64,000 nt of DNA. It comes from Tribonema minus. Lineage: Eukaryota; Sar; Xanthophyceae; Tribonematales; Tribonemataceae. Location of the stretch: the NCBI GenBank assembly GCA_017506865.1, contig JAFCMP010000070.1, positions 124,001 through 188,000 on the forward strand, written 5' to 3'. Below, piece by piece: positions 32,699-54,093 of this stretch. The notes under the pieces were generated by a model. The model saw only the letters and a list, made by a program, of their open reading frames with translations. It was not told where the DNA came from and did not search any database. Position 1 is the stretch's first letter, and every line of letters starts with the position of its first letter. The position numbers were made by a program, and so were the translations under genes.

Positions 32699-33606
32699 TT
32701 ATTGTCCTTCACGCCCTGCAAGCTGCTTGTGTCTCATGCTGACCATGTCCGGGATCTTGTGCGCAACGCAGTGCGTAGGGGTTCTACCCTCGGGCATGCA
32801 GAAGGACGCCTGCCTCATGCACTGGGCGCCCCCCTCGTCTACACCGGCACACCGCTTGTTTTTGACGTCGACCATGCCCGGCGCTTTGTGCGCAGCGCAG
32901 TGCGTGGGGGCCTTATTCCCCGGCACGCCAAAGGACGGCTGCCTCGTGCACTTGGCGCCCCCCTCGTCCACACCGGCGCACTTCTTGTGTCTCACGCTGA
33001 CCATGCCCGGCATCTTATGCGCGGCGCAGTGCGTGGCAGCCTCCCCGGTCATGCCAAAACTCGGCTGCTTTGTGCACTTGACGCCCCCCTCGTCCACACC
33101 GACGCACTTCTTGTTTTTGACGTCGACCATGCCCGGCGTTTTGTGCGCAGCGCAGTGCGTGGCGACCTTAACCCCGGGCATGCCGAAGGTTGGCCGCTTT
33201 GTGCACTGGGTGCCCCCCTCGTCCACACCAACGCACTTCCTGTCCCTGACGCCGACGCGCTTCTTGCTTCTGGCGCCGACGAGAATTGCGTTGCCCGCCT
33301 TCATCCTGTCCACTGCGGCCATCACTCTTTGCAATTCCGCATGAGCCGGCGGCTGCTCCAGCGTATCTGTGTCCATGGCGAGCGAGGGTGTCATGGCTCC
33401 TCGCCGGCTCACAGGCCGCCCCTGTCCGCTTGACAGCAGCCTGAACGGCGCATCAATGTAGTATAGTTGAATTCAACTATACTACAATCAACGCCAGTGA
33501 GTGGGACCGCTTGCTGCCATCCTATACACCGAGGCGCAGTGAAGACCGCTGCTGCCTTCGGGACGCGGCGTGTCGCGGTAAGCAAGCCTCTGAAAGCGTT
33601 GTTCAT
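32699..33606 (-). pseudogene. EsV-1-7 repeat gene, copy 3 (four repeats), frame broken by a palindromic insertion
   Basis: The N-terminal part (33606 down to 33492) starts MNNAFRGLLTATRRVPKAAA and matches copies 1 and 2. At TGVD it meets a 35-base insertion (30-bp palindrome plus 5-bp target duplication), which shifts the frame to a stop near 33409. The downstream frame (33412-32699) is open and encodes MSRRGAMTPSLAMDTDTLEQ, the helix, and four C-x9-C-x15/16-C-x2-H repeats. The repeats themselves are undamaged, so a product could still come from internal initiation at 33412, or the allele may be recently inactivated. Confidence 0.75.
33452..33491. mobile_element. 30-bp perfect palindrome flanked by 5-bp direct repeats
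   Basis: 33457-33486 starts tgtagtatagttgaa and its second half is the exact reverse complement. Both sides carry atcaa (33452-33456, 33487-33491). The paralogue at 28455-28470 has an uninterrupted site (gcgtcaacgccag), so this is a clean insertion. TG...CA ends and a 5-bp duplication recall integrase-type ends, but no known element is recognised. Confidence 0.85.
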
Positions 33607-35571
33607 AGATGCGTTCGTCTGCTTTCAGCCTGCAAAGTACGGCAACCGAAAGCTTGACGCCAGGACGAGGAAGACGCGGTAGGTCGTGCCCTCGAGATCT
33701 CTCTCTCCTGTTTTCCTTCACGCCTACTTTAAGACTAGGTTGAAGTGGACGCGATGAACCCGTGAAATGTGCGACACAAGCTAGTCCCACTCTGGGTATT
33801 TCTGTGAAAGTGGGTGGCTCGGGGTCTTCAGTGGTCCACTGGTGAAGCCCCCCCCCCTCCCGGAGGCGGGGCTGGGTAAGCTGCGCTCAAAGCATTTTCC
33901 GCAAACGTGATGCTGATACGTGTCTGAAAAGTGCCTAATCCAGCATGACATAGTATGGTGCATTCCAGGCGACGCTCTGTTTTGAACGAACTCAGAATGC
34001 AACGCGTACAGGTCGAGACATCTGTGCCAGCCTGATGTGGAAAGCGCCGTAGACAAGACAACTTGAACGCTTTTTGCAACAATGCACCAAAAAAACAAAA
34101 TTCCCAACATGCTGTGGCACGAGACGTGACGTTTCTGTGTCATGTGCCAACTTGAAGTGATACATGACGACATGCAACATCACAAGCGGAATGTTATCAT
34201 AGCAGCAGATGCAGCTTCAAGTTGAGGCACTTGCCAATGAGACCATTGACAAAGAAGGCGAAACAAACACAATAATAGGCAACACCACCATTATGGTGGT
34301 ACAATGCGTATTGAGTCATACAAATGTGCCCTCTTGAATTTCGGCTTGGGATCGTGCACCTTTGCTGAAGAGCGCCGCTGAGCATCCACTTAACTCATCA
34401 AGTGCCACACTTTCTGGTAGACATGCAGTAACTGCAATCCATGATTGCAGACATCTGCACAATTCGTGAGTATATACAGCAGCTCCTGCACCAGCGCACT
34501 GTGTTCCAGATGACCATGCAGCATATCATCAAAGGTCAAGCATACTGTCATCGCCATGTACGAAGCCAAAGCCCAGCTTGTGCAGAAGACGTCGACCAGC
34601 GCTGCTGTGCCACCAGCGCAACCACCACCACCGCTGTGCCACCAGCGCAACCACCACCACCACCAGCGCTGCAACACCACCTGCGCTGTGTTCATCACTG
34701 GGCTCGGCCCGCCGGGACTGCATCTTGCACCGCATTTGTCAAGTCGCCGCTTCGACCTGGACTGCATGCACTGCATCTGTCAAATTGCCAATTCGACTGT
34801 CAAACCAAGGCCATGATTTAGAGTATACATGTGCCTCCTACCATGATCTACATCCCAACCGGCGATTGGCTCGCCTGTCATCGCCTAAGTTGACCAAAAT
34901 AACGTTCAGATAATATCACCTGCAGTTTCTTGCGCTGCAGGTGTACGACGCAAGCCACTGACACAGGCCAGATTGATCTGCTTCATCCTGTAGACTCGAG
35001 CTGTGCAAAAGCTCAGAACACACACATGAAAAAGCACACTTGGGCTCGAGAGCTGCAGCGCGCGTGTCAGCATCAACTTCTGGTGTGCCTTGCTATCACC
35101 GCCGTCATGTGCCATACCTGAGAAAGCTGTTGACGGATATCACCGCTGCACGATAACTTTCTGCACCAGCAAGCCGTCGGCAACTCTGTGGCCTTGCTCC
35201 CACCCCTGGCTCTGGCTTCAGGTGGGCACGCCTGGTGCAAATAGTCAGGTGCCTTGCTGCTGCTGCATTTCAAACCAGCAGCACACGCTGAGCCACTCCA
35301 GTGGCCTAAGTTTGCTTTGCTTTCAGGAGCTGTGACGTGCGTCGCTCAATTTGAGGTTTCGGCACTTCACTTGCATCGTTTTCTTGTGCTGCCTGCGTTC
35401 TGCACGGCCGCCGCCAGGATGGCAGGTTTCTCAGATAGTGCGCTCTCTGTCCCACCACCCGGCGCGCCTTCATGTGCTGTGGTTCGCGCTATCACTACTG
35501 AACGTGAAGTGTGGACTTCAACTTTTTAAGAGAGTTCACGTGGAAAGTTCAACAAGTGCATGCAAAAACAT
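33607..35571. other. AT-richer intergenic region
   Basis: No supported gene. A short CCACCA/GCGCAA tandem tract is at 34605-34680. Around 35160-35520 there are open stretches but no family signature. Confidence 0.5.
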
Positions 35572-37470
35572 TCATTGTCGAACAATTCGGGACACCGAGT
35601 GCAGCACTCGAGTATGACCGAGTATTACTCGGCACTCGGTGCCGCACAGGCACCGATTATACTCGGTCAATATTCACTCGGTCTGCAGAAGCAGCTGTGG
35701 ATAATCACTCGGTCTGACGGCTACACCCGAGTATGCGACCGAGTACAGTGGCGCGGTTGCAAACAGGCTTGGCCTGCGGGCTCGCTTGCCCGGACCGTTT
35801 CGCGACCATTCTCGGTCCTCCGACGCGGGCTTTTCAAACTTTTTGAACCAGTGACTCCTGCTCCTGCTGTCATGGAGGCGGCAGCTGCTGCGGTCGATTC
35901 TGCTGCTGATGCTGCTGCAGATTTAATTGTCATTGACGAGACAGAAGCTTCGCTGCCTGCAGTAGCAGCAGCAGCAGCTGGCCCTGAAGCTGCGCTGCCT
36001 GCAGCAGCAGCTGGCTCTGACCCACCGATTCTTTGGGAGGACGATGATCGCCTGGCCCCGTACACTGTCGTCGAGCGCGAGGGTGCCATCTACAAGTATT
36101 ATGTCATCGTGGAGCACGCGCAACTTGAGTCCGCATCAAAGCGGCAGAAGCTCGGTGGTTGTTACGGCATGCTCTCATTGCCGCAGGGCTTGGCAGGGTC
36201 TGGCGCTGCCAATGGCTCAGTGACTGCCACACCTGACCCGCTAGAGCAGTTGCAGGCTTATGATAAAGATGCACTTCATACAGGCCAGTCCCCCCCCGAT
36301 GATTACAGCCTGTTTCAGTGGTGGAAGTCTGCCATGAGCAAGGGCAAATATGAGCACTTGGGCCAGATAGCCCGCGTGTTGTTGGGGGTGCGTCCCACTT
36401 CAGTCGACCCTGAGCGCAACTTCTCTGATGCTGGCAACATCATCACTGCAAAGCGCTCGAGGTTGTCTCCTGCGATGGCAAAAATACTGCTCATGATCAA
36501 AAGCAACAGTGACCTCATCAGTGATCCTAACGAGGTGTCAGTCTTGTCAAGGCAGCAGGTGCAGTCAATGATGCCTCAGTTGTTTGGTGATGAGGACGAT
36601 CCGTTTGATGTCGCAGACACTAGCGGGAGCAGTGACTCAGATGATGGAGACTCTGAGTGAGTTAAGCGACAATTGCAAGGGACCTAGCTGGCAACCTGGG
36701 TATATGCTACCAGTTTGATGACTGTGAGGATCTGCAAGAAAGGTTGGAATGTATATACATGCGCTCAAGCCTGTCACAGGCTACAACGGCATTTGAGTCT
36801 GGTTGACGTCTCTGCTCTTCCTGCTGCCGGTAGTACTGCCAGATTATTGAGCAACGGCTGTTTGTGTGCACTGCCAGCCTGCCCTGTTTCTTTTGCATGC
36901 AATGCGTGTCGCAACTGTGGTCACCATGTGTGTTGCATCATTGGTCTGCTAGTACTACGCTGGTGCTTTTCCCTACCCTGCTCTGCTAATCAGCTGGCGC
37001 TCCTTACCCTTGCCATACATGTTTGCGGCACATGACTCATATTCAAGTTGACACATTATTGCCTGACATGGTCAGCAGATGGTCATGATGACTCTGTTAA
37101 CTCTGCTGCAGCAGTGCTGCTAGATGTGTATCGTGTGATCATGCTGCAAACCCCACATGCTGCACGTGTGCTGCAAGTGTTATGCCTGATTCACATGCGA
37201 ATGCATGCTGCAATGCATCAATACTCGCCAATACGCGGTCAATACTCGCCAAATACTCGGTCAATACTCGCCTGCAGCCTTTAGGGCCCATACTCGGTGT
37301 GCGAGTAAATACTCGCACTCGGTTTGGCTGCCGAGCTGCAGCACTCGTACTCGGTGTGCCCAACATGGCAAGTATACTCGGTGCATACTCACTCGGTCTC
37401 TGCATGAGTCACCCATACTCACACTCGGGGGGTAAAAGTGCATATTCAGCAATGTCTGTGCAAAAATGGC
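35572..37470 (+). mobile_element. Defective hAT-type transposon, copy 1
   Basis: The unit starts near cattgtcgaa/ttcggg and ends near agcaatgtctg. Both ends are packed with ACTCGG/CCGAGT motifs (35593-35740 and 37215-37432), like the subterminal transposase-binding arrays of hAT elements. The left end forms the hairpin CCGAGTA-T-TACTCGG. The outer ends resemble each other in inverted orientation (caccgagtg... against ...cactcgg). Exact terminal repeats and an 8-bp target duplication could not be fixed. It is followed directly by a second copy in the same orientation. Confidence 0.65.
35872..36660 (+). CDS. hAT transposase C-terminal dimerisation-domain protein
   Basis: 262 codons from the ATG at 35872 to TGA; the frame is open further upstream. 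After an Ala-rich, acidic region (IVIDETEASL), residues about 135-220 carry the hAT dimerisation domain: YSLFQWWKSAM, LGQIARVLLGVRPTSVDPER, NFSDAGNIITAKRSRLSP, and LLMIKSNSDL. The tail is acidic (DEDDPFDVADTSGSSDSDDG). The BED zinc finger and DDE catalytic residues normally found upstream are missing, so it cannot transpose on its own. It could be a remnant or a domesticated dimerisation or regulatory protein. Confidence 0.75.
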   Translation: MEAAAAAVDSAADAAADLIVIDETEASLPAVAAAAAGPEAALPAAAAGSDPPILWEDDDRLAPYTVVEREGAIYKYYVIVEHAQLESASKRQKLGGCYGMLSLPQGLAGSGAANGSVTATPDPLEQLQAYDKDALHTGQSPPDDYSLFQWWKSAMSKGKYEHLGQIARVLLGVRPTSVDPERNFSDAGNIITAKRSRLSPAMAKILLMIKSNSDLISDPNEVSVLSRQQVQSMMPQLFGDEDDPFDVADTSGSSDSDDGDSE

Positions 37471-39205
37471 AGACATTGTCGAATAATTCGGGACACCGAG
37501 TGCAGCACTCGAGTATGACCGAGTAATACTCGGCACTCGGTGCCGCACAGGCACCGATTATACTCGGTCAATATTCACTCGGTCTGCAGAAGCAGCTGTG
37601 GATAATCACTCGGTCTGACGGCTACAACCGAGTATGCGACCGAGTACAGTGGCGCGGTTGACTTGGCTCGCTTGCCCGGACCGTTTCGCGACCATTCTCG
37701 GTTCTCCGACGCGGGCTTTTCAAACTTTTTGAACCAGAGACTCCTGCTCCTGCTGCCATGGAGGCGGCAGCTGCTGCGGTCGATTCTGCTGCTGATGCTG
37801 CTGCAGATTTAATTGTCATCGACGAGGCAGAAGCTTCGCTGCCTGCAGTAACAGCAGTGCAGTAGCAGCTGGCCCTGAAGCTGCGCTGCCTGCAGCAGCA
37901 GCTGGCTCTGACCCACCAATTCTTTGGGAGGACGATGATCGCCTGGCCCCGTACACTGTCGTCGAGCGCGAGGGTGCCATCTACAAGTATTATGTCATCG
38001 TGGAGCAGTTGCAGGCTTATGATAAAGATGCACTTCATACAAGCCAGTCCCCCCCCGATGATTACAGCCTGTTTCAGTGGTGGAAGTCTGCCATGAGCAA
38101 GGGCAAATATGAGCACTTGGGCCAGATAGCCCGCGTGTTGTTGGGGGTGCGTCCCACTTCAGTCGACCCTGAGCGCAACTTCTCAGATGCTGGCAACATC
38201 ATCACTGCAAAGCGCTCGAGGTTGTCCCCTGCGATGGCAGAAATACTGCTCATGATCAAAAGCAACAGTGACCTCATCAGTGATCCTAACGAGGTGTCAG
38301 TCTTGTCAAGGCAGCAGGTGCAGTCAATGATGCCTCAGTTGTTTGGTGATGAGGACGATCCGTTTGATGTCGCAGACACTAGCGGGAGCAGTGACTCAGA
38401 TGATGGAGACTCTGAGTGAGTTAAGCGACAATTGCAAGGGACCTAGCTGGCACATTGGGTTATGCTACCAGTTTGATGACTGTGAGGATCTGCAAGAAAG
38501 GGTTGGAATGTATATACATGCGCTCAAGCCTGTAACAGGCTACAACGGCATTTGACGTCTCTGCTCTTCCTGCTGCCAGTAGTACTGCCAGATTATTGAG
38601 CAACGGCTGGCTGTGTGCACTGCCAGCCTGCCCTGTTTCTTTTGCATGCAATGTGTGTCGCAACTGTGGTCACCATGTGTGTTGCATCATTGGTCTGCTA
38701 GTACTACGCTGGTGCTTTTCCCTACCCTGCTTTGCTAATCAGCTGGCGCTCATTACCCTTGCAATACATGTTTGCGGCACATGACTCATATTCAAGTTAA
38801 CACATTATTGCCTGACATGGTCAGCAGATGGTCATGATGACTCTGTTAACTCTGCTGCAGCAGTGCTGCTAGATGTGTATCGTGTGATCATGCTGCAAAC
38901 CCCACATGCTGCACGTGTGGTGCAAGTGTTATGCCTGCTTCACATGCGAATGCATGCTGCAATGCATCAATACTCGCCAATACGCGGTCAATACTCGCCA
39001 AATACTCGGTCAATACTCGCCTGCAGCCTTTAGGGCCCATACTCGGTGTGCGAGTAAATACTCGCACTCGGTTTGGCTGCCGAGCTGCAGCACTCGTACT
39101 CGGTGTGCCCAACATGGCGAGTATACTCGGTACATATTCACTCGGTCTCTGCATGAGTCACCCATACTCACACTCGGGGGGTGAAAGTGCATATTCAGCA
39201 ATGTC
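37471..39205 (+). mobile_element. Defective hAT-type transposon, copy 2
   Basis: A direct repeat of copy 1 at high identity (few substitutions per 100 bases by eye), from cattgtcgaa at 37474 to agcaatgtctg at about 39207, with the same ACTCGG arrays at both ends. The two copies abut with about 20 bases between, so this is a tandem arrangement rather than two scattered insertions. Confidence 0.7.
37758..38419 (+). pseudogene. hAT dimerisation-domain ORF, copy 2, interrupted
   Basis: It starts at the same ATG as copy 1 but a small rearrangement in the CAG repeat creates an in-frame TAG (37863-37865). About 131 bases of copy 1 (36118-36248) are missing here, with GAGCA at both edges of the lost piece. 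The dimerisation domain (38063-38300) and the acidic tail remain open and nearly identical to copy 1. Confidence 0.8.
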
Positions 39206-40571
39206 TGAAAAATGGCACAGTCCAAGAACCACGAGCACACGGGACGTCTAAGAAAGGCTCCGGCCTGAACACCCCTCGCCAACAAATCTAGTGTAAACAA
39301 AAGGGCACATACCAGGTGCTGGCGACCAAAAAACTTGTGAAAATAGAGTGCACAAGGCAGGCTGCAATTAATGACAGTACAACAACTTCTTTCTCCCGTT
39401 GAGCACACACACTTCTTTTCTCGCTGAAAGACTTGAAGTTCTACAGCGGACCCACTCTTTGGCATGGTGAATAGGTTTTGAGATGAGGACATGTATGGAC
39501 AGAGCATGCACATCAAGAAGGCAAGCAATAGAAACCGAGACGAAGTCCGTCGGCATGAACAAAAGACTCGTATACAAGCACTCTCCTGTGACATCACAAA
39601 CATCTTGCGACCATTATTCCACGGGCGTGCTGCAGGTCACGAAACTGATAGCATTTGTCACAACACTAACGTTTCACGTTGTTGCCGATATTCAAGCCTG
39701 TTCTTGGGAACATCCGTTTGCGCGGCGAAACGCATTGCTTGCTTACCCTGCTGTTTTAAAGCAAGCCCACACGCTCAAGTATTTGGAACCTCGTGGTCAA
39801 AACCAAGACAAGTGCACCAGACATGCGGAACAGCAACAGAGCCATGCAAGGTGAACCAGCAAACATCAATTCGAAAAATGAGGAGCGAGCGGTCATCGGC
39901 GATAAAAGGACATCCATGATAATGCCATGTGGTGCTACATAAGCGCTCCATACAGCGGCAGCGCTGAGTCCAAACTCACGCTCAAAGCCACCCATCTGGC
40001 ATAAACAGCAGCATGGAGCACTCGCTTTTCGCGAGCCGCGCCCTTGCTGCAGCAGCCCCCCCCCCTCCTTCCCACCTGCCTCTCTGAAAATCCTAGACCG
40101 CCCACACCGCCCTCCCCAATTTTTTGTTGCAGCAGCCGTTTTGTGTAAGGTACGGACCTCGCCACCGCATGGCAAGCACAGAAGCGCGCGCGGCGGGGGA
40201 GGGGGGTGGGGGTAGGGGGGCAGGGGGGAAGGGGGGCGGAGCCGTCCGGCTCAGTGCGCCGAGCAGCATGCAGTGCTGCAAAGCCGGCCCCGCCGCTGCC
40301 GTCGTTGCATGGCACGCCCGTGCCGCCCCCCCCACCCAGGACTAGAGAACCCGTCATAGTGCGCCGTGCCGCGCCGCGCCGCCGAGTCATCATCATGATG
40401 ACGCGTGCGCTGTTGCAACCCCCCTCCCCCACACAACTTGCCCCCCCCCTCCCTCCTCCCCCCCCCCCCATTCTACTCCTACGCCCGCGGCATGCACGCG
40501 CGGGTGGCATCCCCCCCGCACACGCCAGGCGCTTCCAGCGCTTCAGGTTTGTGAACTTCATGTTGAAGTTT
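39206..40571. other. Intergenic region with dispersed repeat and homopolymer runs
   Basis: It contains dispersed repeat copy B (39411-39681). At 40030-40480 are many C and G homopolymers on both strands. It is the 3' flank of the Ca2+-ATPase gene. No gene is supported. Confidence 0.55.
39411..39681. repeat. Dispersed repeat, copy B
   Basis: Matches 31865-32133 with many substitutions and small indels. It has no conserved reading frame. Confidence 0.75.
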
Positions 40572-43500
40572 TCAGACGGCGACGGCGTCCTTGGACTTGG
40601 TGATGGCGGCGCCGGGCGGGTCGTAGCCCGCATAGTCTGACATCCGCTCGCCGACGGGTATGAAGCGCATGAGAACGCCGAGCGGGAACGCGATGAGGCC
40701 GAGCGCTGACGTGATGAGCCACTGCTCCGCGGTGAGCCCGGCCGTTTTCGTGAACTCGCCGCCGACCTCGATCACAAAGATCTGCAGGCCGATCGTGATG
40801 AGGATGATCGCGATGAACATGGGGTTGCCGCCGATGCCGCGCAGTATGTTCCACTCGTCGCCGATAGAGCGCGCGTTGAACTCGTTGGCGATCTGCGCGA
40901 AGACGAACGTGTTGAAGATGAGCGAGTAGTGCACGTAGTCAAAGGACGTGCAGTCCTTGAAGCACTTGTCGTCGAAGTCGGCGTACTGCGCGAACTCGTC
41001 GTCGTAGCACGCGCCGTTGTCGCCGCCGCCGCACGCCGCCGTGAACGACGCGCACGTCGTGAGCCCCGCGCACGCCGCGCCCGCGCAGTTGGCGACCTGC
41101 TGGAACGTCTCGGGCGACCACGCGAGGTCCGCGACGTTGGGCTTGACGACGTACTGCTCGCACGGGTTGTTCTTGCGCACGTCGTCGAAGAGGACGTCCG
41201 GCGCGAAGAGCAGCCCGAGCAGCATGGCGAGCTGGAAGACCGACATGACGCCGATGTGGCGCATAATCTTGTACGACAGCAGCGACGCGCGCCGCGAGAA
41301 CGGCTTGCGCTTGAGGAGGTCGAGCGTCGGCGCCTCCGTGCCCAGCGCGAGCGCGCCCATCGTGTCCATGATGAGGTTCACCCAGAGCATCATGACGGCA
41401 TTGAGGGGGGGGTCGAAGCCCGCGACGGAGCCGATAAAGACGATGGAGAGCGCCACCACGTTGACCGTCAGTTGGAACTGCGCGCGCGCGCGTGGGTGTT
41501 GGGGGGGGTGGGGGGGGGGGGGGTGTCAGAATTGGAAATCGGGGGCGCACAAGCTTGGGGCACAGCTGCAGACATCACGAACAGGCGCAAAGTACCAGCG
41601 GATAAGGAAGTTTGAAGCACGGATAGACTGCACGCGAAGTATCCCTGCGCCATGCGTGCCGCCAACGGTCATTGTTGCAGCATCCGAAGCCGCGCCTCGC
41701 AGCATGAACGCGCGTTACGCCTACCACAGCGGACGCGCTCGCTGCCGCAAGTACGCAGCGACACAGTTCAATCCTGCTCTCGCTCCACTTGTCAGTAAAG
41801 TGTCGTTGACCACTTCCTGAAATATCGCAGTTCCCTTCCTTCATACACTTGCAACGCTCACTTTCACTTCATGCAACTACGAACCGATCAACATGGCGGC
41901 GGCGCGGCCGCGACCGCTCGCTCCCGGCCACTCGCAGCGTCGCGGTGAGCAGACTGCAGCGCTCAGCCGCAGTGGCAGCGCTCAACTGCAGGAGATTGCG
42001 CATGTCGACGTGCAACAGAGGGCACGCAACATGCAAGCGCAAGCTTCAAACTTGAAGTTCAGAACCCACCTGCAGGAACTTGCGGATGTTGTCGTAGACG
42101 GAGCGGCCCCACATGATGGCGCGCACGATGGACGAGAAGCGGTCGTCCAGGATGACAATGTCCGAGGCGTTTTGGGCCACCTGCAGAGATACCAGGGGAG
42201 GGGGGGGAGGAGGAGGGGAAAGGGGGGGGGGGGGGGGGGGGGAGTTAGTCAAATGGAGGCGCTGGCGGCGGCAACTGTCGGCAGCACTGCTGGATTGCCG
42301 GTTGAAGCGCTTGCACGTCCCATCCTCACCCTGGCCGCTACACACTAGCCAATGCTCTAAGCCTCATCTGAACACGCTACCTATGACAAAAAGCGCGCAC
42401 GTGCATCGAGCCGGCGCAGCACAGCAGCACATCGCCCTGGCACGCAAGACAACTTCAGATTCAGCTGCAATGCAGCGCAAGCGTCTTGGTGCCATCGATG
42501 CCCATGCTCAGCGACGCGCCTGCTGCTGCACGCAATGGCAACTTCGACTGCACCTGCTGCTCACGCACCATGCAAGTTCAACTCCGACCACGCACCTTGG
42601 TGCCGGTGATTCCCATGCTCAGGCCGACGTCGGCCGTCTTGAGCGCGGGCGCGTCGTTGGTGCCTAACTTCAACTCCAACTGCAACCACATGCGTTCGCG
42701 CCTGCTGCTCTCACACCAATGCAACTGCAGTCCTGACGCTGCGCGCACTTGGTGCCGGTAATTCCATGCTCAGGCCGACGTCCGCCGCCTGGAGCGCGGG
42801 CGCATCATTCGTGCTGCCAACTTCAACTGGAACCTCAACTGCATCAGCAGCTTGAGTGCCCCCAGGGGCCCCCATGCTCGCAATGCGCCCGCTACCTCGC
42901 AGCGCAAACTTCAACCCTGATCACGCACCTTAGTGCCAGTAATTCCCAAGCTCAGGCCGACGTCCGCCGCCTTGAGCGCGGGCGCGTCGTTCGTGCCTAA
43001 CTTCAACTCCAACTTCAATTACATGCAGGTACACGCATGTTTCACGCCCGCTACTCTCGCACCACGCAACTACGCCCCTACTACACGCACCTTGGTGCCA
43101 GTAGTTCGCATGCTCAGGCTGACGTCCGCCGCCTTGAGCGCGGGCGCGTCGTTGATGATGCCAACTTCAATTCTGACCTGAACTGCACCCAGCGGGCGAC
43201 TGCTTACCAAAGCACCTGCTACCTCGCAGTGCACCAACTTCAACAACGCACCTTGGTGCCGGTGATTCCCATGCTCAGGCCGACGTCCGCCGCCTTGAGC
43301 GCGGGCGCGTCGTTGGTGCCGTCGCCCGTCACGCCCACCACCTCGCCGCCCTTGGGGTTGGCCTTGGCCCACTCCTCCGCGTAGCCAGGCAGCAGACGGT
43401 CCCTGTCGGTCTCCCACGAGAGGCCCAGGACCCCCGTCTTGTCGTGTATCTCCTTCCACTCCGCCTCGTTCTTGGGCATGTTGTGGCCGTTGAGGCGCGT

Positions 43501-46500
43501 GACGAGGAGGTACTTGTCGTTGGGCGTTGAGCGCGCGAGGACCTGGAGGCGCGGCAGCACCTCGTCCACCTGGCGCACGCGCCGGGGGGGGGGGGGGGGG
43601 GGGGGGGTCAGAGAGGAATGTCAGAGGCTCAGGCTCAGGGTCAGGGTGAGTAAGAGGGTCAATATCAGGGTACAGAGGGCATTTTTGCATCAACAGCGAG
43701 AGCACCTGGAGGCGCGGCAGCACCTCGTCCACCTGGCGGGCAAGAGGGGGAAGGTGTGTATGGGGGGGGGGGGGGGGGGTAAAGGGGGGGCGCCAGAGGG
43801 GGGCTCACAGGCTCAGGGTCAGGGTCAGTAGTCAGTAGCAGGGTCAGAATACAGTAGCGGGCAATTCTGAGTCGACAGGCGCGAGCACCTGGAGGCGCGG
43901 CAGCACCTCGTTCACCTGGCGCAGGAGGGGGGGAGGGGGGGTGAGGGGGGGGGGGGCAGAGGGGGGGCATCAGAGGGTCAGGGTCAGGGTCAGTGGCAGG
44001 GTAAATATATGCATGCGCCGCGCACTCACCACAACAACAACGCAACCCTAACACCGCACCTGCGCGGGCGTCTTGGTTGCAAAACATGAGCCGCGTCAGC
44101 GCCATGCTGCCCTCCCTGACAATGCCGCAGTCAACATGACAACGTGCACTACTTCAAAGTACAAGCACCCTGATTCCAGCGCCTTGTAAATATGCGTGCG
44201 CCGCGCGCGATCCCTACCCCCATCGTAACCCTAATCGCACCTGTGCGGGCGTCATGTTGCGGAACGTGGGCGCCTGCAGCGCGCCGCCGCCCTCGGACCC
44301 AGGGCCTTGTAAGTGCGCATGCACTGCGCCTTGTGGATATGCATGCGCTGCGCACCGACCCAAACCGCGATGTCACCTGCGCGGGCATCATGTTGCGGCA
44401 CGTGGGCCCCTCGAGCGCGACGCCGCCCTCGCGCAGGATGCCGCAGTCGTATGTGACAATGCGAACTACAGGCACCATCGTCCCGGCGCACTGTAAACAC
44501 GCATGCGCCGCGCCCTACTCATAACAGCAAGATCCTAACCGCACCTGCGCGGGCGTCATGTTGCGGAACGTGGGCCCCTCGAGCGCGACGCCACCCTCGC
44601 GCAGGATGCCGCAGTCGCGCGCGATGGCCTTGGCCGTGTGGATGTTGTCGCCCGTGACCATGCGCACCATGACGCCTGCGTGCTGCGCCGTCGCGACGGC
44701 CTCCTTCACCTGAGAACGCAGAGAGCGGAGAGGCGGTGGTCAGGAAACGGTCAGGAAACGGCAACGCCACGAGCATGCAACGCGCTGCGGTTCTTGCGCC
44801 GGTATGCTGTGCTGTGGCGGTGGCCTCCTTCACGTGGGCGGACAGAGGGAGCGATGGAGTCGCGAGGCGCGCATTCAGGGCACAGAAAGCGTTCATGTAG
44901 CTCAAACTTGAACATGCTGCATGTGGTACAGTGACGCCACCATAGGGTTAGGGTTGGGGTTAGGGTTAACCCTAAGTGGCTTGAACTTGCTGGAAGCGAA
45001 ACGGGAATCTGGGGGTCTGCGAAGGGCAACGGTCTGGGGCCCTACACACCACGACAGCACAACTTGAACTACAACATGTGACATCCCTCAACTTTGGTCA
45101 CAGCGCGTCCATGCTGCCTACGACCGCGTCGCACACCATCCGGTCGCTGTTTGCGGGCGACACCGTCTCTTCAACTCGAACATGTGACACACTGCAATTT
45201 CAACTTCAATCTCAACTTCAATGTGCGCTCAACTTCAATGTGCGACTCACCTCTGGCCGCAGCGGGTCCATGATGCCGACGACGGCGTCGCACACCATCT
45301 GGTCGCTGTCGGGCGACTCCGTCTCCCAGCCCGCGGGCAGGTCGGCCACGCTGTCAAAGTCAATGTGCGCAATGCAGATGGTGCGCAGCGCGCGGTCCGC
45401 CATGCCAAAGATCATCTCCTCCATCTCGCGGCGCTTGGCGTCCGTCAGCGGCTGCGGCTTGCCGTCGGGGCCTGCATGGGGGGCGACGGGGGTGGTGTGT
45501 GTGTGTGGGGGGGGGGGAGGGGCGATGATGAGTTGATTCATCGACTTGCCCACAGTACATGCGTGCTAGCGCGTGTCGCTAGTGCGTGCGTATGTTGAAG
45601 CGCTTCAATGAATCACAAACGCGGCTTGGCGTCCGTTTGCGGCTGCTGCGGCTTGCGGTCGGGGACCGCGATGGGGGGGGAGAAGGGGGGGGGGGGGAAG
45701 GGGGGGCGGAATGACATGCGTCATCCACCCACTGCCTGCATGCACAACAACCCCGCCCGCCAACAGTGTGTGCGCATTCTCGAGTCCTTCCAGAGCTCAA
45801 GGAGTCATCTAGCGCGGTATGCCCGGAAGGCGGCTGCGCTCGATGCACGAGTGCGCTTGGTGCCTCACATGCCTGTGATCGGCGCTGCCCACGGCGCTCT
45901 TCGCATGTGCCAGTCTTTGAAGCGGAAGCGACACATCCGCGCATGTGAAGAACGCGCAGTCCTGGAGGACGCGCTGACCGGAGAGGCGTAAACTGCCCCG
46001 CAGCGCCCTTGCATGACGCGCAATGAGATGGGCTGCGCCGCACACTACTACAGCCAACACCATTGCTACAGTGACAGAAGAAGAGTCCGTGGAACGCTTC
46101 GCACTCAACGCACCTGTGAAGAACGCGCAGTCCTGGAGAACGCGCTCGCTGGCGCCCTTGCAGAACAGGCGCAGGCCGCGCGCGTCGGCCTCCTTGCGGG
46201 TGACGAGCACCGAGGAGCGCTTCTTGGCCGAGTTGAAGGGGTACTCACGGTCCACCGCGGGGTCAAAGAGGCTCTTCTTGAGCGACACGGCGTTAAAGCC
46301 CCAGTCCATGGCGAGGATGACGAGGGCGCCCTCCGTCGCGCTGCCGATGACCTTGGGCTTGTGCAGCTGCTTGCCGTCCTCGCCCTGTGTTGCACGTACG
46401 ACGCGGAACGGAAGGGGGGGGGGGGATTGCTCCATGTGTGTAATTGTAGTGATCACGCATGCAGGTCACCGGCTAAGAATTCGTCGCGCTGCCAATGACC

Positions 46501-49500
46501 TTGGGCTTGTGCAGCTGCCCTGCACATGCGCAATGCACAATTCATGAGGGGGGAACTAGCATTCAGTGGGACACAACTAGGCACACATGTACGTGTAAGG
46601 TCTGTGCTCAAACGGATGCAGGCGAGAGCAACCATCCAGGCATGCCGATGAGCTTGGGCTTGTGGGGGGAACAGTGGAAGGGGATCAGTTGCACGAGCAA
46701 AGAGGCCAAGATGGTGTGTCTGCAAGGCCTGTGACCGTAGGAATGCATAGGACGAAGGTGCCTTGTATTGAGCTGCTAAATCGCTGCGCTCGTGCCGCAG
46801 CTCGCCACCGCCTCCCTGAGCGGGCACAGGAATATACCTCAAGTACATGAAGTACACACATAACGTGCAGGTTCCGCCAGCGCATGGCGTGCCGCTCGCA
46901 GCGGCAGGAGCGCTCGCGCATAAACGCCTCGAGGTCTGCAAGCACGTGGGACGCGCCTTCTCGCAGCAGCGCTCAGCTCACTTTCAGCTGCACTTTTCGC
47001 GGCCGTGTCGATAGCGCAGTTGTGTGTGCTGAGGTCCAGCGCCTCACCTAACCCTCATCTCAACCTAAGTCCAGCACCTGACCTACCCTAACCCTAGCCC
47101 TAGTCCGTAGGGCACGTCTCACCTTGAAGTGCACCTCGCAGCTCCTGTTGATGGCGCAGTTGCGCCTGACGTGGTTCATCTGCCCTAACCCTAACCCTAA
47201 CTCCATCCCTTCCCCAAGGGCATGCCTCGCCTTGAAGCGCATTTGGGCGTGGCGAGATCCATGACATTGCCTCGCTTTCACCCTAACACTAACCCTAACA
47301 CTAGCCCAAAGGGCGCGTCTCACCTTGAAGTGCACCTCGCAGCTCCTGATGGCGCACTTATGTGTGACAAGGTCCAGCGCGTCATCTCACCCTAATCCTA
47401 CCCCAAACCCAAACCTAGCCCAAATGGTGCGTCTCAAAGTGCATCTCTCAGCTCCTGTAATTGAGGCAGGTAGGTATGACCCTTATACTAACTCTAGCCC
47501 TAATCCGGAGGGCGTATCTCACCTTGAAGTGCACCTCGCAGATCCTGCTGACGGCGCAGTTGTGCATGCGCAGCGAGATCCAGCACCTCACCAAACCCTA
47601 ACCCTAATCTGGAAGGAGCGTCTCACCTTGCACCTCATCAAACCCTAACCCTAATCTGGACGGCGCGTCTCACCTTGAAGTGCACCTCGCAGCTCCTGTT
47701 GATGGCGCAGTTGTGCGTGACGAGGTCCAGCACCTCGGGGGGGATCGTGCCCGCAACGCGCAGCGCGTCGGGTCCGACGTGGTTGTCGCCGAACCACCCC
47801 TCCACCACCGTCATCTGGTTCATGGTGAGGGTGCCGGTCTTGTCGCTGTGGAGGCAGGGAGCAGGGGGGGGGGGGGGGGGGCAGGGGGGCGCTCAGTAAA
47901 TCATCGTGAAGAAGGGAGTGAGCGGAGAGGGTATGATGGCGGGGGCGCAGCAGGTGGTGGTGGCGAATGCGCAGAGAGAGAGCGCACCAGATGCAGTCTG
48001 TGATGCCTGCATACTCGCTGAGGAGCGCCCGCTGGGATGCGCGCGCGCGCAGCTGCGGCCCAAACTACAGTTACAGCAGGTCAAGCCCTAGCCAGTGGGA
48101 TTGCAGCAACCGTCATTGCATACACTTGAAGCTGACAACGCCATGGCAGGCCCCCACCTGCAGTGGCGTTGCCCATAGCTCGCACGCCACGAGCACGCGA
48201 ATGACGTTCTGGTCGCCGAGCACCCTCTCATGCCCAATCCTGGCATGTCAACTTCAACACGGAGGAAACACAAAACTGAACTTCAACTGCCCACCGTGCG
48301 CCCCTCTTACCTGCAGATATTGGTGGTGTTGCCCATGGTCTCGCACGCGGCGCGCAGGCTTTGTCTGCCAACCTCAACATGAGAACTCTGTGCGTGACCT
48401 GAGAACTGTACTTCGCCTGCACTGCTCTCCTCTCCTCTCGCCTGCAGATGTTGGTCGCGTTGCCCATGGTCTCGCACGCCGCGAAGACGCGGATGAGGTT
48501 CTGGTCGTTGAGCAACTCCCCCCCCTCTCACCAGTCTTGGCCTGTCAACTTCAACACTCAGAAATAAAACTCACTACACCTTCCCACTGCACAGCGCCTC
48601 TCGTACCTGCAAATGTTGGTCGCGTTGCCCATGGTCTCGCAAGCGGCAAGCACGCGGATCAGGTTCTGGTCCTTGTACATCTTGCGCGTGCTGTACGCGA
48701 GCGAGATGGTCACGGCCAGCGGCAGCCCCTCGGGGATGGCCACCACGATGATGGTGACGGCAATGATGAAGGCATCCACAAAGCCTGCGGCGGGGAGGAG
48801 TGAAACGGGGTGGGTGGGTGGGGGGGGGGGGGTGTCAGCGTCTTCATGTGCTGCTGTACAGCACCTCAAGCGTTGGTGTTGGGTGTGCTGAGACGCTGGA
48901 CTTGCGCGCGTGCGCAGGATGACCCCTGCCCCCGCATGACTGTGACAGGCCCGTGACATGTGACGCGCGCGATGGCTTGCTTGCAACTTGGAAGCACCGG
49001 TCCTACAGAAGCGGCGCACCGCAGCATCCCTCTGCAGCGGCGCGCGTCGCGCAACAGCCACGGCGCCGCGCGCACCCTCTCCCACGCCGCTCTACAAGCA
49101 CTGCCGCATGCGTGCACTGACCCAGTGAACGCGCATATAGAAGTATGTGCAGACGTGCCCTGTAGGATGTCGTTGTCGCCGTTGCGCGCCCAGATCACGA
49201 TGACGAGCACGGTGAACATTGCTACCGCAAACCCCCTCGTTGACTTTGCGTCCTAATCTCAAAGGTGACGCTCCACCCTGCTCACTGCAGGCCCGCTCGC
49301 ACTAGCCCGGCAGCGCATGACAGCTACACGCGCACACACACACGCGCACGTATACGTACGCACCCTGGAGGATGTCGTTGCCGCCGTGGCGCGCCCAGAT
49401 CATGATGACGATCACCATGAACGTCGCCACCGCAAACCTCTTTGTTGACTTTTTGTCATAATCTCACCAGTGACGCTCCACCATGCTCATCGCATGCCCC

Positions 49501-52500
49501 CAGCAGCGCGTGAGAGCGCGCGGAGGCGCGGCGCGCCACACGCGCTACATGCGCGCACACACATGCGTACATCAGCATACATGTACGTACGTACCTTGGA
49601 GGATGTCCTGGCCGCCGTGGCGCGCCCAGATCATGATGACGAGCACAATGAACGTGGCCACCGCAAAGCCCACGCCGACGTAGCCAATGAGCGTCGCCAT
49701 GACATCCAGCTTCTGCTGCAGCGGCGTCTCGCTGGGCTCCGACGTGAGCGTTGCGCGGATCTTGCCCCACTCGGAGTGCGTGCCGACGCCCGTCACTACA
49801 ATCTTGGCGTCGGAGCTGTTGCCCACCTGAGGGTCACCAGGGGGGGAATTCGGGGGGGGGATGGGGCGATGTGAGAGAGCTGATGTCTGAGAAAGGGGAT
49901 GGTGGCGGCGGCGGCGCGGGGATAGGGGGGGGGGGGTTAGGGGGTGATGAGGAGCTGTTGCCCGCCTGAGGGGGGTGGCGGGGGGGGGGGGGGGGAGGGA
50001 GGTGTACAGTGTCATCAATGTGCCCGCACCTCGGTGGTGACGAGGCGGGACGAGAGGAGGACTGGGGTGCTGCCGCCGGGGCGCTTCTCAGTGTGCCTGA
50101 ATGCCTTCACGTGATACACCAATAATTGCAATACTTCCAAGTACTACGATCTTGGCGTCGGAGCTGTTGCCCACCCCTCAGGGTCACCAGGGGGGGGAAT
50201 TCGGGGGGGATGGGGGGATGTGAGAAAGCTGAAGAGGCGGCAGCGGTGGCGGCGCGGGGATAGCGGGGGGGGCTTAGGGGGGTGATGAGAGACATGAGAG
50301 CTGACGGCGAGGCAAGGCGGCATGCATTATGGAGCGCTGACGTGCTGCTGCTGAACTTTTTTGGCCCATTGCAGGCCTAATGACGCTCTGAAGAGTTCTA
50401 AAGCTGTAGTCAAATGCTAGTTCGGGGTGAACGATGCTAGGCGTTGCATTCCTGATTTATTGTTTACGATGACTTCTAGCAGTTGATAAACTACAAATTT
50501 AGTCCATGTTCTCATGCTTCAGATGAGTGCATGCAACCACTCGGACGCACCTCGGTGACGAGGCACGACGAGAAGAGGAACGGGTTGCTACCGTCGGGGC
50601 GCTTCTCGAGGTCGTCGGGCTCGCCCGTGAGGCCCGACTCGTTGCACTTGACGCCCTCGCCCTCAAAGATGATGCCGTCCGCGGGGATGGAGTCCCCCGC
50701 TTTGAGCAGCACGACGTCGCCAATGACCAGCTCATCGGGATGGATCTGAGGGGGGGGGGGTCAAGGCAGGACGTCACGCAGGTGAGAATCTTTGAAAGGG
50801 GTACGTATAGCACTCAGGCATGTATGTGTGTACGAGGGGGAGGGGGGGGGATCAAGGCAGGATCAGGGACATCAAGGCAGGACGTCACCGAGGTGGAAAT
50901 CGTTACACGGAGTATGTGTAGCAGAGGTCAGTAGGCATGTAAGAGGGGGGGGGGGGGAGGCAGGACGTCACCCAGGTGAGAACCGTTACACACGACGTGG
51001 CAAGAGTCACCCGTGCTGGGACTGCACTGGGCAAGCGCGCCTTCGTACAAGGACCGTCATGGTGCTCGCACGGTGCCGTGATCAGCGGGCACACAAGCGA
51101 GCGTGAGCAAGGCCGGAGCACTGAGGCGAGCCAGAGGCACGTCTCCTCTTGCAGTGCGTTCTGCCATCCGCTACGTATGCGCGCACGAGGACACAACTGC
51201 TGCCTGTGCGCCGTTCACTGACAGGCCCCTTACACGCGCCGCATGACATTTATCAAGACATAAGAATGGCCAAGTTAGTATCAATGCTCTGCTTGGACGG
51301 TTGCATGTCCTGCCAACGGCAATGCGCGGCCCCGCCACGTCCACGCCGCTGAGCGCTGCACCCCTGTTGTGGAGCGCTGCTGCAGGTCTCCGTAGTCAGC
51401 AAACCGATTTCGACGCTCGCGGGGCGTGCTGATGCGAACGGCGCAGCTACCCCACGTCATCAAACGGCATGAGCATTGCTACAGTGTCTGTTGGTATCTG
51501 TTGGAAGCGCTTCGCTGTTTGGAATGCTTCACTGCAAGTTGAAAAGGCGACCGAATTTGTTGATGACGATAGCGATATGCGAGCAGCGTCATTTGTCTGA
51601 CGCATGCCCATGACTGCACATTGCAGTTGTCAGGTGAAATTCTACCTGTGTGCGTTGTCTGAATTGATTGGTATCATGACGCGGGGCATATATGGAAGCG
51701 CCTCTAATGCACATGCCCCGGTCTCTGGCTCTCAGTATTGGATTCTGTTGCGCTCTGTGCAGTGTACACGCAGCGTCATGGCCTGCTGCGTGAGGCATTA
51801 CCGCCTGAGTATGGTGCTGAGCACTGCTTGTATCCGTCACCGTAGGGTGCGGATGCATGTGAGGAGACGAAGGGGACCTTGTTGTAAGGTACAGTGTTTG
51901 CTTGAGGTAGGAGTGGCAACATTTGAAGTTCATGACTGCTCATGGCGCAAGGGGCCAACATAAAGGCTGTGCAATCTGTCGCTTGCGAACTGTAGGCCCT
52001 CAACCGAAGCAGCACGCCGCCTGCTCTGGCAGCATTGAACTGCCTATGGCCAGGCTGCTCAAGTGTTTACATGGCTCAGTGGCTGAGTGTACACTTGTAA
52101 GTCATCAGAGTGGACTCTGTAACACATCATGCCAGGGGGATAGGTAGTCTGTCTGCGCTGTGTGCGGCTCCCGACCGGGCGACCATGCGCAGAGCAGTGC
52201 CGCAGGCAGCTGGCTGAAAGCGACATGTACGCTCAGCGGGTGATGCGGGCCCGAAACGCGCCAATGTCACGATGAGTGCCGATTCTTGCACACTGCGCAC
52301 AAACGAGTTTCTCTGGGCAAGTGCACGCTGCAGCTGCTTGCGCCTCCACCACAGCTGCCTGCACAACCTCAGGTGAGACTCTACACACTGCTGAGCATCA
52401 ACGCGCCTGCTGCAGCGACACTGACAAGGCACTTGTGCACGGTACTGATACTGAGTGATGTTTTCTGAAATGGTCAATCTTTGATCGCGACAAAGTTGGA

Positions 52501-54093
52501 CTTCGCAATGAATGTCCTGCAGTATGTCCGGCGCTACTGCTGGAGTGTTGGCAATCAGTTGTAGTACTAGTGCCTACGCTCTGTCCCACTCTGATGACCG
52601 CGGGCGTGCACACGCAGCAGCGCTCCGGTCCTGAGCTCCTCCGCGCACGCTGTGCGAGTAGTGCCATCACCTGCGCCGCCATACTTTTCTCGCATCGCGC
52701 TTATTGCCATATTAGATATCTTGTGTGCGACCACTGAACCCATACTAGTACTGTAGTTCGAATGTAAGGGAGGGGGCGTGACGTAGCGACGCATGAGGGG
52801 CGGCGGCGGCGCACCTGCAGCGTCTCCCCGTTCCTGAACGTAAAACAAGTACGATCCTGTGCGCCGCCGTATAGTGTTCTAGCATCGAGCTTACATCTCT
52901 TGTGTGCGACCATTGAACTCATTACTAGTAGCTAGTACGCAAGGGAGGGGGCGTGACATAGAGGGGGCGTCACATGGCAACGCATGATGGGCGGTGGCGG
53001 CACACACCTGCAGCGTCTCCCCGTTCCTGAGCACAAAAGGGGTACCATTGCGTGCGCCGCCACAGTTTTCTAGCATCAAGCTTACTGCGAGGCTGGAGCT
53101 CTTTTGCGAGATGCTCCAGTAGTAGTTTGAAAGTAAGGGAGGGGCGTGACATAGCGACGCATAGCGACGCATGAGGGGCGGCGCACCTGCAGCGTCTCCC
53201 CGTTCCTGAGAACCAGCGCGCGCTCCGACTCCTCGCTCGTCTTCTCCAGCGCCCTGAACTGCAGCTCCTTGGAGTAGTCATTGGTCGCAGTCACTATGGC
53301 CACGATGAACACCGCAATGAGGATCGCCGTGCCCTCGATCCACCCGTGCCCCGGCTCCGTGATGATGCCGATGATGAGCGACACAACCGCCGCGACGATC
53401 AGCACCTGCAGGATGGTGTCGTTGAAGGACTCCATGAAGAGCTTGAAGAAGCCCTTCATGGGGGGCTCGGGGAAGCAGTTGTTGCCGAACCTCTCCCTCT
53501 GGCGGATGACCTGGTCCGGCGACAGGCCCGTTATGAGGTCCACACCCAGGCCCGCTGCCAGCTGCAGCGTCCCCCCGAACTGCTTGTCCAGCCGCTCCTT
53601 GTTCTCCTTCACTTCCTGGGCCGAGGACACCAGGCTGAACAGCCTGTCCGGGGTCACCTCCTCCACGGTGCTGGGCTTGGAAACCAGCGCCGGCGCTGGG
53701 TCTGCCGTGCGCTTGTCCGCTGGTCAGGGAGTGCGATAGAAGAAGCGCCAGCATCACAGGATGTGGTGAACAAGGAGCGCTGTGGGTGACATTCCGTAAA
53801 CAAAGAGCGTGGCCCGCGAGCACACCATGCAGCACACGGTAGCAACCTGGAGTACCCAGCTAACTGTTTCGACCATGCAGCACCATTCAATGATACACAA
53901 GACCTCAGCAGCATGCCCCCAGCGAGCGTAGGAGCCCTCAAGCGCTTGTACTCCTGGAGCGAGATAAAAGGCAGATTCCAGCGCAGCTACAGCCTGGCAG
54001 GCACTCACCATCAGGCTCCTTCTCCTCGCCGATCAGACTGATGGACCTCTCCAGCTCATCGCTCACAGCAGCGGCCTCGCCTATGCGGGCCAT
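40572..54093 (-). CDS. P-type Ca2+-ATPase, plasma-membrane (type IIB) family
   Basis: Twelve exons read on the minus strand: 54093-54009, 53719-53187, 50745-50551, 49826-49595, 48784-48607, 47845-47674, 46384-46114, 45471-45251, 44709-44545, 43569-43252, 42180-42070, 41477-40572. Every phase matches, giving 1128 residues, normal for the family. It pumps Ca2+ out of the cytosol using ATP. Motifs in order: M1-M2 (about 115-175), actuator loop [10 protein letters not shown] (TGEP where most members have TGES), M4 [11 protein letters not shown], phosphorylation site [11 protein letters not shown] (Asp about 410), KGASE nucleotide-binding site, MVTGDN, DPLRPE, hinge [13 protein letters not shown]6 [16 protein letters not shown], then M7-M10. 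The loop between M7 and M8 is expanded and has eight cysteines. The C-tail is short, with no clear calmodulin site. Nearly every intron carries tandem copies of the adjoining exon edge. Confidence 0.92.
42594..43163 (-). repeat. Four ghost copies of Ca2+-ATPase exon 10 end plus donor
   Basis: Copies at 42594-42663, 42747-42819, 42926-42997 and 43089-43163 each encode variants of [21 protein letters not shown] followed by a GT donor-like site. The real exon end is at 43252-43321. Spacing is about 150-180 bp. The material between copies contains CAACTTCAA motifs. Confidence 0.85.
43697..43925 (-). repeat. Ghost copies of Ca2+-ATPase exon 10 start plus acceptor
   Basis: The exon start ([12 protein letters not shown] on the minus strand, real copy at 43534-43569) recurs at about 43697-43740 and 43884-43922. 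Each is preceded in transcript sense by a CAG and a long C tract. A GTCAGGGTCAGGG-type repeat lies between. Confidence 0.8.
44057..44463 (-). repeat. Three ghost copies of Ca2+-ATPase exon 9 end
   Basis: Copies at about 44057-44141, 44238-44295 and 44376-44463 resemble the end of exon 9 ([20 protein letters not shown], real copy 44545-44630). The nearest copy is best conserved, with the donor context intact. Confidence 0.8.
45089..45160 (-). repeat. Ghost copy of Ca2+-ATPase exon 8 end
   Basis: It matches 45248-45315 ([19 protein letters not shown] on the minus strand), with several substitutions. It lies in the following intron. Confidence 0.7.
45620..45680 (-). repeat. Ghost copy of Ca2+-ATPase exon 8 start
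   Basis: ggcttggcgtccgtttgcgg and the following bases match 45434-45475 ([14 protein letters not shown] on the minus strand), again followed by a G run that is a C tract in transcript sense. Confidence 0.65.
45935..46000 (-). repeat. Ghost copy of Ca2+-ATPase exon 7 end
   Basis: gtgaagaacgcgcagtcctg and neighbours match 46114-46150 ([12 protein letters not shown] on the minus strand). Confidence 0.75.
46485..46680 (-). repeat. Ghost copies of Ca2+-ATPase exon 7 start
   Basis: Two short copies (about 46487-46518, 46642-46664) of gatgaccttgggcttgtgca, which in exon 7 is at 46347-46370 (LHKPKVIG on the minus strand). Confidence 0.65.
47110..47640 (-). repeat. Multiple ghost copies of Ca2+-ATPase exon 6 end
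   Basis: Copies of tctcaccttgaagtgcacct and the next 30 bases ([14 protein letters not shown] plus donor on the minus strand) are at about 47117-47165, 47319-47355 and 47517-47560, with weaker ones near 47225 and 47430. Real exon end 47674. CCCTAACCC runs separate the copies. Confidence 0.8.
48158..48515 (-). repeat. Three ghost copies of Ca2+-ATPase exon 5 end
   Basis: Copies at about 48158-48222, 48310-48365 and 48443-48512 match 48604-48675 ([20 protein letters not shown] on the minus strand). A CAACTTCAACAC motif follows most copies. Confidence 0.85.
49158..49442 (-). repeat. Two ghost copies of Ca2+-ATPase exon 4 end
   Basis: Copies at about 49158-49232 and 49363-49440 match 49592-49670 ([20 protein letters not shown] on the minus strand). 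Spacing is about 205-230 bp. Confidence 0.85.
50027..50190 (-). repeat. Ghost copies of exon 3 end and exon 4 start in one intron
   Basis: 50027-50092 matches the exon 3 end (50548-50610, [10 protein letters not shown] on the minus strand). 50145-50190 matches the exon 4 start (49800-49840, [10 protein letters not shown]). Both kinds of ghost are thus present in the same intron, interleaved with G runs. Confidence 0.75.
50755..50975. repeat. Tandem tcaaggcaggacgtca repeats in Ca2+-ATPase intron 2
   Basis: Copies near 50760, 50852, 50871 and 50958, each next to a G run (C tract in transcript sense) and followed by caggtgagaa/gaggtggaaa. Confidence 0.7.
51000..52784. other. Remainder of Ca2+-ATPase intron 2
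   Basis: Intron sequence between exons 3 and 2. I see no gene or repeat in it beyond short open frames. Confidence 0.5.
52785..53035 (-). repeat. Two ghost copies of Ca2+-ATPase exon 2 end
   Basis: Copies at about 52798-52860 and 52986-53050 match 53170-53215 ([11 protein letters not shown] plus donor on the minus strand), with intact CAG|GTG junctions. Flanks also repeat (cgccacagttttctagcatc; agggagggg-cgtgac). Confidence 0.8.

Follow-up and report, generated by a model that had tools for sequence, protein, structure and literature searches.

Why should the introns of a gene carry copies of the edges of its own exons? The question is raised by a P-type Ca2+-ATPase gene (gene A) of the yellow-green alga Tribonema minus, a xanthophyte, in a stretch of 64,000 nucleotides (the window; C70:124001-188000, from a genome of 158 Mb in 554 contigs). 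A sequence-only reading of the window had proposed that almost every intron of this gene is built from tandem, degenerate copies of the flanking exon edge and its splice site. In our judgment it is very probable (about 0.85) that segments straddling the splice junctions have been duplicated in tandem again and again, that splicing has stayed at the intact exon, and that the copies left behind in the introns are decaying neutrally.

Exon-edge copies in gene A

The exon map of gene A was set by hand and comprises 12 exons on the minus strand, with GT-AG borders at every intron. The spliced product contains five Pfam domains of P-type cation ATPases, and its top protein match is JKP88DRAFT_304841 (P0001) of Tribonema minus (100% identity, 97% query coverage). 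P0001 is spliced as in our map from within exon 2 (PSTVEEV...) through exon 12. It has a different N-terminal exon and enters exon 2 later than the hand-made map, which leaves exon 1, intron 1 and the acceptor of exon 2 in doubt. The exons are as follows:

54009-54093, minus strand: exon 1, fixed by hand, uncertain
53187-53719, minus strand: exon 2, donor edge duplicated, acceptor uncertain
50551-50745, minus strand: exon 3, hand map and P0001
49595-49826, minus strand: exon 4, hand map and P0001
48607-48784, minus strand: exon 5, hand map and P0001
47674-47845, minus strand: exon 6, hand map and P0001
46114-46384, minus strand: exon 7, hand map and P0001
45251-45471, minus strand: exon 8, hand map and P0001
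44545-44709, minus strand: exon 9, hand map and P0001
43252-43569, minus strand: exon 10, hand map and P0001
42070-42180, minus strand: exon 11, hand map and P0001, ghosts on neither side
40572-41477, minus strand: exon 12, hand map and P0001

A copy of an exon edge inside the adjoining intron is here called a ghost, and a strong ghost is one with an alignment score of at least 40. Gene A has 26 strong ghosts, 21 on the donor side and 5 on the acceptor side, listed with their identity to the exon edge:

53008-53034, minus strand: exon 2 end, 96%
52815-52837, minus strand: exon 2 end, 100% over 23 nt
50036-50089, minus strand: exon 3 end, 85%
50143-50174, minus strand: exon 4 start, 97%
49366-49436, minus strand: exon 4 end, 93%
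49161-49235, minus strand: exon 4 end, 84%
48442-48510, minus strand: exon 5 end, 93%
48311-48359, minus strand: exon 5 end, 84%
48163-48214, minus strand: exon 5 end, 83%
47523-47589, minus strand: exon 6 end, 92%
47324-47378, minus strand: exon 6 end, 93%
47123-47178, minus strand: exon 6 end, 93%
46997-47045, minus strand: exon 6 end, 84%
46482-46518, minus strand: exon 7 start, 97%
45944-45975, minus strand: exon 7 end, 97%
45624-45664, minus strand: exon 8 start, 92%
45092-45169, minus strand: exon 8 end, 88%
44377-44449, minus strand: exon 9 end, 96%
44241-44295, minus strand: exon 9 end, 89%
44060-44132, minus strand: exon 9 end, 79%
43879-43915, minus strand: exon 10 start, 95%
43696-43732, minus strand: exon 10 start, 95%
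43091-43157, minus strand: exon 10 end, 91%
42929-42997, minus strand: exon 10 end, 93%
42748-42814, minus strand: exon 10 end, 93%
42596-42664, minus strand: exon 10 end, 97%

Each exon edge (150 nt) was also scored against each intron of the gene. Of the 11 donor sides, 9 had copies of the exon's own edge in the adjoining intron, as did 5 of the 11 acceptor sides; these 14 junctions scored 34-131, above the maximum of 27 from 220 non-adjacent exon-edge/intron comparisons. The matches are thus not at background level, and the original observation holds. Its list of junctions (the ends of exons 2-10 and the starts of exons 4, 7, 8 and 10) is exactly that of the ghosts scoring at least 40. The phrase "almost every intron" is borne out on the donor side; fewer acceptors are affected. 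A weaker copy of the exon 9 start still exceeds the null, and additional weaker copies occur at the ends of exons 6 and 10 and the start of exon 7. No ghosts above the null were found for the ends of exons 1 and 11 or the starts of exons 2, 3, 5, 6, 11 and 12. With the sides exchanged, exon ends matched the upstream intron in 0 of 11 cases and exon starts the downstream intron in 3 of 11 (exons 5, 6 and 9), the latter presumably because the first and last 150 nt overlap in exons of 165-178 nt.

Multi-copy repeat families are found at the junctions (the exon 10 donor, for example, has one of 73 nt in five copies), and local duplicates cover 4112 of the 10135 intron bases (41%). In line with the sequence-only reading, the ghosts lie outside the public spliced product: P0001 contains none of them. 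Judging from this protein model, the real junctions, and not the ghosts, are presumably those used in the cell.

Junction-spanning units in gene A and beyond

What exactly is duplicated? The units span the donor or acceptor and include intron sequence, and 130 of 205 copy pairs show significant homology of the intronic halves. Median distances are 163 nt to the nearest ghost and 146 nt from one ghost to the next; 123 of 146 distances fall within 100-220 nt, and a modulo-3 bias is absent. Sampled junctions have from one to six ghosts, and one array at another locus has them at 181, 355, 529 and 702 nt, the middle ones being alike across the full unit. Since the units span the junction, have homologous intronic halves and are spaced in tandem, the copies are DNA-level tandem duplications and not processed exon insertions. 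This agrees with the earlier proposal of tandem duplication across exon-intron borders at many separate junctions. The same structure is recovered when units are sought through their intronic halves, without using the exon: 18 of 23 such intron-anchored units also carry an exonic part, and a random-intron control for the anchor itself gave 3 of 115. The exonic part measures 23-101 nt (setting aside a 129-nt coding repeat), while most host exons are longer than 130 nt, and donor-side ghosts are partial exons without the exon's acceptor.

Two further ideas of the sequence-only reading fared less well. An increase in divergence away from the exon was not clearly borne out: of the 40 arrays with at least two ghosts (all loci), 21 had higher similarity in the nearest ghost than in the farthest and 18 had lower (Wilcoxon p 0.03, mean difference 2.7 points), and the mean rho was -0.04 in the 23 arrays with at least three. 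Lengthening of introns was rejected, since predicted introns with donor ghosts have a median length of 897 nt (n=48), as against 972 nt without (n=68), and donor-ghost count does not follow predicted intron length (rho 0.06, p 0.51).

Nor are the copies restricted to one gene. A paralog (gene B, public model P0002) on contig C24 is 77% identical to gene A in DNA over the longest match. The junctions of exons 3-11 are identical in the two genes (lengths 195, 232, 178, 172, 271/274, 221, 165, 318 and 111 nt), and gene B has introns inside exons 2 and 12 that are absent from gene A. Of the 13 donors and 13 acceptors of gene B, 9 and 8, respectively, scored for ghosts, counts in which one donor and one acceptor test are unsound, as is the share of duplicates in the e12a intron, the end of e12a having been placed inside the exon and the exon between e12a and e12c omitted. 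For 5 of the 13 exon ends and 3 of the 13 starts, the intron on the opposite side scored as well, presumably in part owing to the same 150-nt overlap.

The wider sample consisted of 20 regions (3 of gene B and 17 around P-type ATPase hits or gene A matches) plus 4 arbitrary ones, 2 of which yielded no predicted gene. When 304 kb were compared with themselves, 15 of 18 stretches contained local direct duplicates; after each stretch had been shuffled once by dinucleotides (Markov), there were none. Most sampled stretches thus contain them, at a very uneven density: 0 per 10 kb in L030, L033 and L041, 1 in L036 and L038, and 43 in L026. Outside genes A and B, exons were predicted with an HMM trained and tried on these two genes only; exons scoring below 12 or shorter than 60 nt, and five that resembled a longer neighbor, were excluded beforehand. 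Ghosts were found for 36 of the 92 donors of these predicted exons and 24 of the 92 acceptors, with a null of 6 in 2666, so that about a third of the sampled junctions (60 of 184) carry traces. Probes of 80 nt had a local copy at 49 of 114 donor and 32 of 116 acceptor exon edges; in introns the figures were 25 of 118 (donor-proximal), 21 of 96 (acceptor-proximal) and 29 of 209 (mid-intron), and elsewhere 11 of 215 (far from predicted genes) and 4 of 38 (exon interiors). The control against another locus gave 1 of 906. The enrichment at junctions is expected in part, because a conserved exon copy keeps ghosts detectable for longer. Viral contigs queried with P0004 contained no relative.

Other repeats are present in the window. 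Three tandem copies at 347-746 on the plus strand (about 120-140 nt) each combine a C-rich tract with an acceptor-like GCAG site and share the sequence that follows; they look like acceptor-side ghosts of another gene. A 129-nt repeat, probably a coding repeat and possibly EsV-1-7-like, forms three arrays (24154-24781, 27627-28257 and 32726-33256), about 75-85% alike across arrays. There is also a direct duplication of ~1.2 kb (36244-37471 and 38003-39217, 97% identical), accompanied by an additional pair (35561-36116 and 37459-38007, 91%).

Has the process continued since the two paralogs separated? At sites that distinguish A from B, exon 4 ghosts carry own-gene bases in a ratio of 18:1 in A and 26:1 in B, and exon 9 ghosts in ratios of 25:3 and 16:3, respectively. 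These ghosts therefore arose, or were last copied, after the split, in keeping with the running process that had been suggested. Exon 5 ghosts of A (3:11) and exon 10 ghosts of B (8:16) are not own-like, and some ghosts may be older than the split. The tallies are indicative, since sites within one junction are not independent; those resting on unaligned edges (the exon 2 acceptor and part of exon 7) were left out. Ancestral arrays common to both paralogs were also considered, but array orthology could not be demonstrated: with ghosts masked, only 2 of 10 introns, those after exon 2 (score 49) and exon 9 (score 43), aligned with their counterpart above the off-diagonal maximum of 34. A purely intronic motif in intron 2 near the exon 3 acceptor (50761-51006) has three copies in gene A and a counterpart by the exon 3 acceptor of gene B (score 49, off-diagonal maximum 34).

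Origin and decay of the ghosts

In the mechanism that we propose, DNA segments of about 100-220 nt straddling a splice junction would be duplicated in tandem, repeatedly. After each duplication, splicing would keep the site copy that borders the intact exon, that is, the outermost donor or acceptor; because this site stays in use, the protein would be unchanged and the duplication tolerated. The other site copy would become intron and decay neutrally, while selection would hold the exon copy, leaving the ghost recognizable, and further rounds would generate the arrays. The DNA event itself was presumably break repair or a duplication of the flap or slippage type. Telomere-like hexamers lie no more than 30 nt outside the exon-side boundaries of 22 of 146 ghosts, compared to 38 of 730 nearby controls (p 1e-4), which is suggestive of break repair with filler. 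Such hexamers number 1657 in 304 kb, about 4.6 times the 363 in one dinucleotide shuffle, and TTAGGG/CCCTAA in all rotations is frequent at 44900-47700 of the window and in other introns.

The decay of the ghosts is free of coding constraint. Across 53 ghosts drawn from the two genes, differences from the exon amount to 8.2, 7.0 and 17.0% at the three codon positions, and 22 gaps shift the frame while 4 keep it, in agreement with ghosts that decay freely and exons that change only synonymously. Single-base differences are synonymous in 50% of cases, against 27% expected under random change; we read the excess as the exon's own synonymous changes, although constraint would give the same. Of 36 donor ghosts, 26 have a GT within ±1 of the expected position; decay alone predicts about 30 by our own estimate. 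With no excess retention of GT, the decoy sites of the sequence-only reading are at most a by-product. In exon-anchored alignments, the exonic parts of ghosts seemed much better kept than the intronic parts. In intron-anchored units, however, exonic divergence is 7.5% and intronic divergence 14.2%, close to the ratio for plain decay, since on the exon side only the ghost changes and on the intron side both copies do. Strong purifying selection or conversion acting on ghosts was thus weakened by gapped alignment and intron-anchored detection, and both are kept only as rivals.

Of these, it is conceivable, if rather unlikely, that the arrays are old and have been homogenized by gene conversion with the exon as donor, which would give the ghosts a young appearance beside old intronic halves. 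Divergence between ghosts would fit such concerted evolution, being 11.5% in the exonic and 22.8% in the intronic part (51 exon-anchored pairs, 23 junctions) where neutrality predicts equality; part of this gap may come from ascertainment and alignment error. Donor ghosts are also mostly own-like at the diagnostic sites (124:27 in A, 85:24 in B), and in A as in B the first ghost of exon 10 ends at +161. On the other hand, the intron-anchored units are consistent with plain decay, the exon 5 ghosts of A and exon 10 ghosts of B are not own-like, and in the young array at L026:7550 three ghost pairs have similar exonic and intronic divergence (5.2/1.8, 6.9/6.5 and 1.7/6.5%). Occasional exon-to-ghost copying, or weak constraint, is possible but not required.

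Could the ghosts instead be functional, serving as alternative exon 3' ends, decoy donors or poison exons under selection? The well-kept exonic part and donor hexamer in exon-anchored alignments and the synonymous excess would be expected if so, and the paralog offers an apparent instance: P0002 leaves exon 6 at an internal CAG/GT and re-enters in the exon 6 ghost (about 2418-2590 of L020, C24:476001-486000). The skip drops residues largely common to gene A, and may reflect an error of gene prediction or genuine splicing into the ghost. However, changes amount to 7-8% at codon positions 1 and 2, much the same as the excess at position 3 (9-10 points), which agrees with unconstrained ghosts beside exons that change synonymously; 22 of 26 gaps are frame-shifting; no GT was found in 10 of 36 donor ghosts; the ghosts on the donor side, being partial exons, have no acceptor; and the intron-anchored units display no large excess of conservation. 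We consider selection for function improbable.

Many introns are affected, as might be the case for an introner-like or other mobile element or for RNA-mediated insertion of exon fragments. However, the copies match only their own adjacent exon and contain an intronic half, and a 2.2 kb ghost stretch compared with the whole genome (simple repeats skipped) picked up its own locus and the paralog, besides nine matches of 36-60 nt, making such an origin highly implausible. An assembly artefact, or chance similarity in GC-rich sequence with its long intronic poly-C/G tracts and simple repeats, can be dismissed with similar assurance, as shuffles give no local hits, 25 of the 26 strong gene A ghosts differ from the exon by 3-21%, unlike mis-joined reads, and the phenomenon recurs in a separate paralog and on other contigs.

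Known systems and the limit inside exons

How does junction-spanning tandem duplication compare with what is known? Tandem exon duplication can give rise to mutually exclusive exons, which are likewise tandem exonic copies within a gene. Unlike these, the Tribonema ghosts are partial, mostly 23-86 nt, and lack the opposite splice site, so that they are not whole exons. Introner-like elements differ in being shared: in the non-adjacent comparisons and the single 2.2 kb genome query, we saw no sharing among unrelated introns. The main text of an introner paper (PMC9860276) mentions neither "Tribonema" nor "tandem duplication".

In the classical tandem-duplication model, as outlined in PMC4974935, gene DNA containing splice signals is duplicated and one copy becomes a new intron, as in the cases of ATP2A1 and potato RdRp. 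The Tribonema duplications similarly involve splice-signal DNA and leave one copy intronic, and potato RdRp, where the duplicated piece is an intron-exon stretch, is the nearest in kind. In those cases, however, the intron is new, whereas Tribonema ghosts fill existing introns at positions common to both paralogs (exons 3-11), and the duplication recurs at most junctions of one gene and at many further junctions of the sample. The novel introns of Drosophila that derive from regional tandem duplication (PMC2891723) also involve exonic sequence of which one copy was intronized; they occupy novel positions in a set of genes, and the abstract mentions no arrays of junction copies in old introns. 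In rice, patch-mediated repair of double-strand breaks leaves tandem or partly tandem duplications as insertions of 10-1000 bp (Vaughn & Bennetzen 2014, as cited in PMC7407515), and tandem duplications there are attributed to asymmetric nicks and end joining (PMC7407515). These resemble the adjacent direct duplications of Tribonema, with their distances of 100-220 nt, but as described in PMC7407515 they are tied neither to splice junctions nor to arrays. No description of junction-ghost arrays was found among the matches listed in a survey of titles and beginnings of abstracts, a scope outside which most subscription journals lie.

What is new here is that the duplications seldom reach more than 86 nt into the exon. 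The exonic part exceeded 86 nt at 1 of 64 junctions, where 26 would be expected from uniform breakpoints (first ghosts with a reach of 25-127 nt, exons of at least 130 nt, period below 260; reaches of 128 nt or more were left out beforehand on account of the 129-nt coding repeat). The 95th percentile of the reach is 77 nt on the donor side and 78 nt on the acceptor side, and no relation to exon length or period was seen. Among the predicted internal exons, just 7 of 124 fall below 86 nt. Random tandem duplication alone does not explain this deficit. Presumably, the exonic part is mostly held below 86 nt either by competition between splice sites or by a restriction on where breakpoints can fall within exons: selection may act against duplications whose ghost is big enough to be a competing exon or splice site, or breakpoints may seldom lie further than half a nucleosome into the exon. 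A stronger form of the latter, which we put forward tentatively and think doubtful, is that exon borders are recurrent, physically defined duplication boundaries, where a nucleosome-sized (~160 nt) duplication process, coming from the intron, extends into the exon for no more than roughly half a nucleosome (~75-85 nt), at the donor and the acceptor alike and regardless of exon length and period.

Why does this matter? Tandem duplication of splice-site DNA has so far been argued mostly from single cases (PMC4974935). With traces at about a third of the sampled junctions, the rate, unit size, breakpoints and splicing consequences of the process become statistically measurable. Gene models in such genomes should be viewed with caution, since they can pick up ghost exons. 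The limit on exon reach is a testable regularity, which may reflect the exonic context that a site needs in order to compete, or a barrier to duplication inside exons. If exon borders do act as physical boundaries, junction-spanning duplication would be a main source of intron sequence in this lineage, and would provide a standing supply of spare splice sites.
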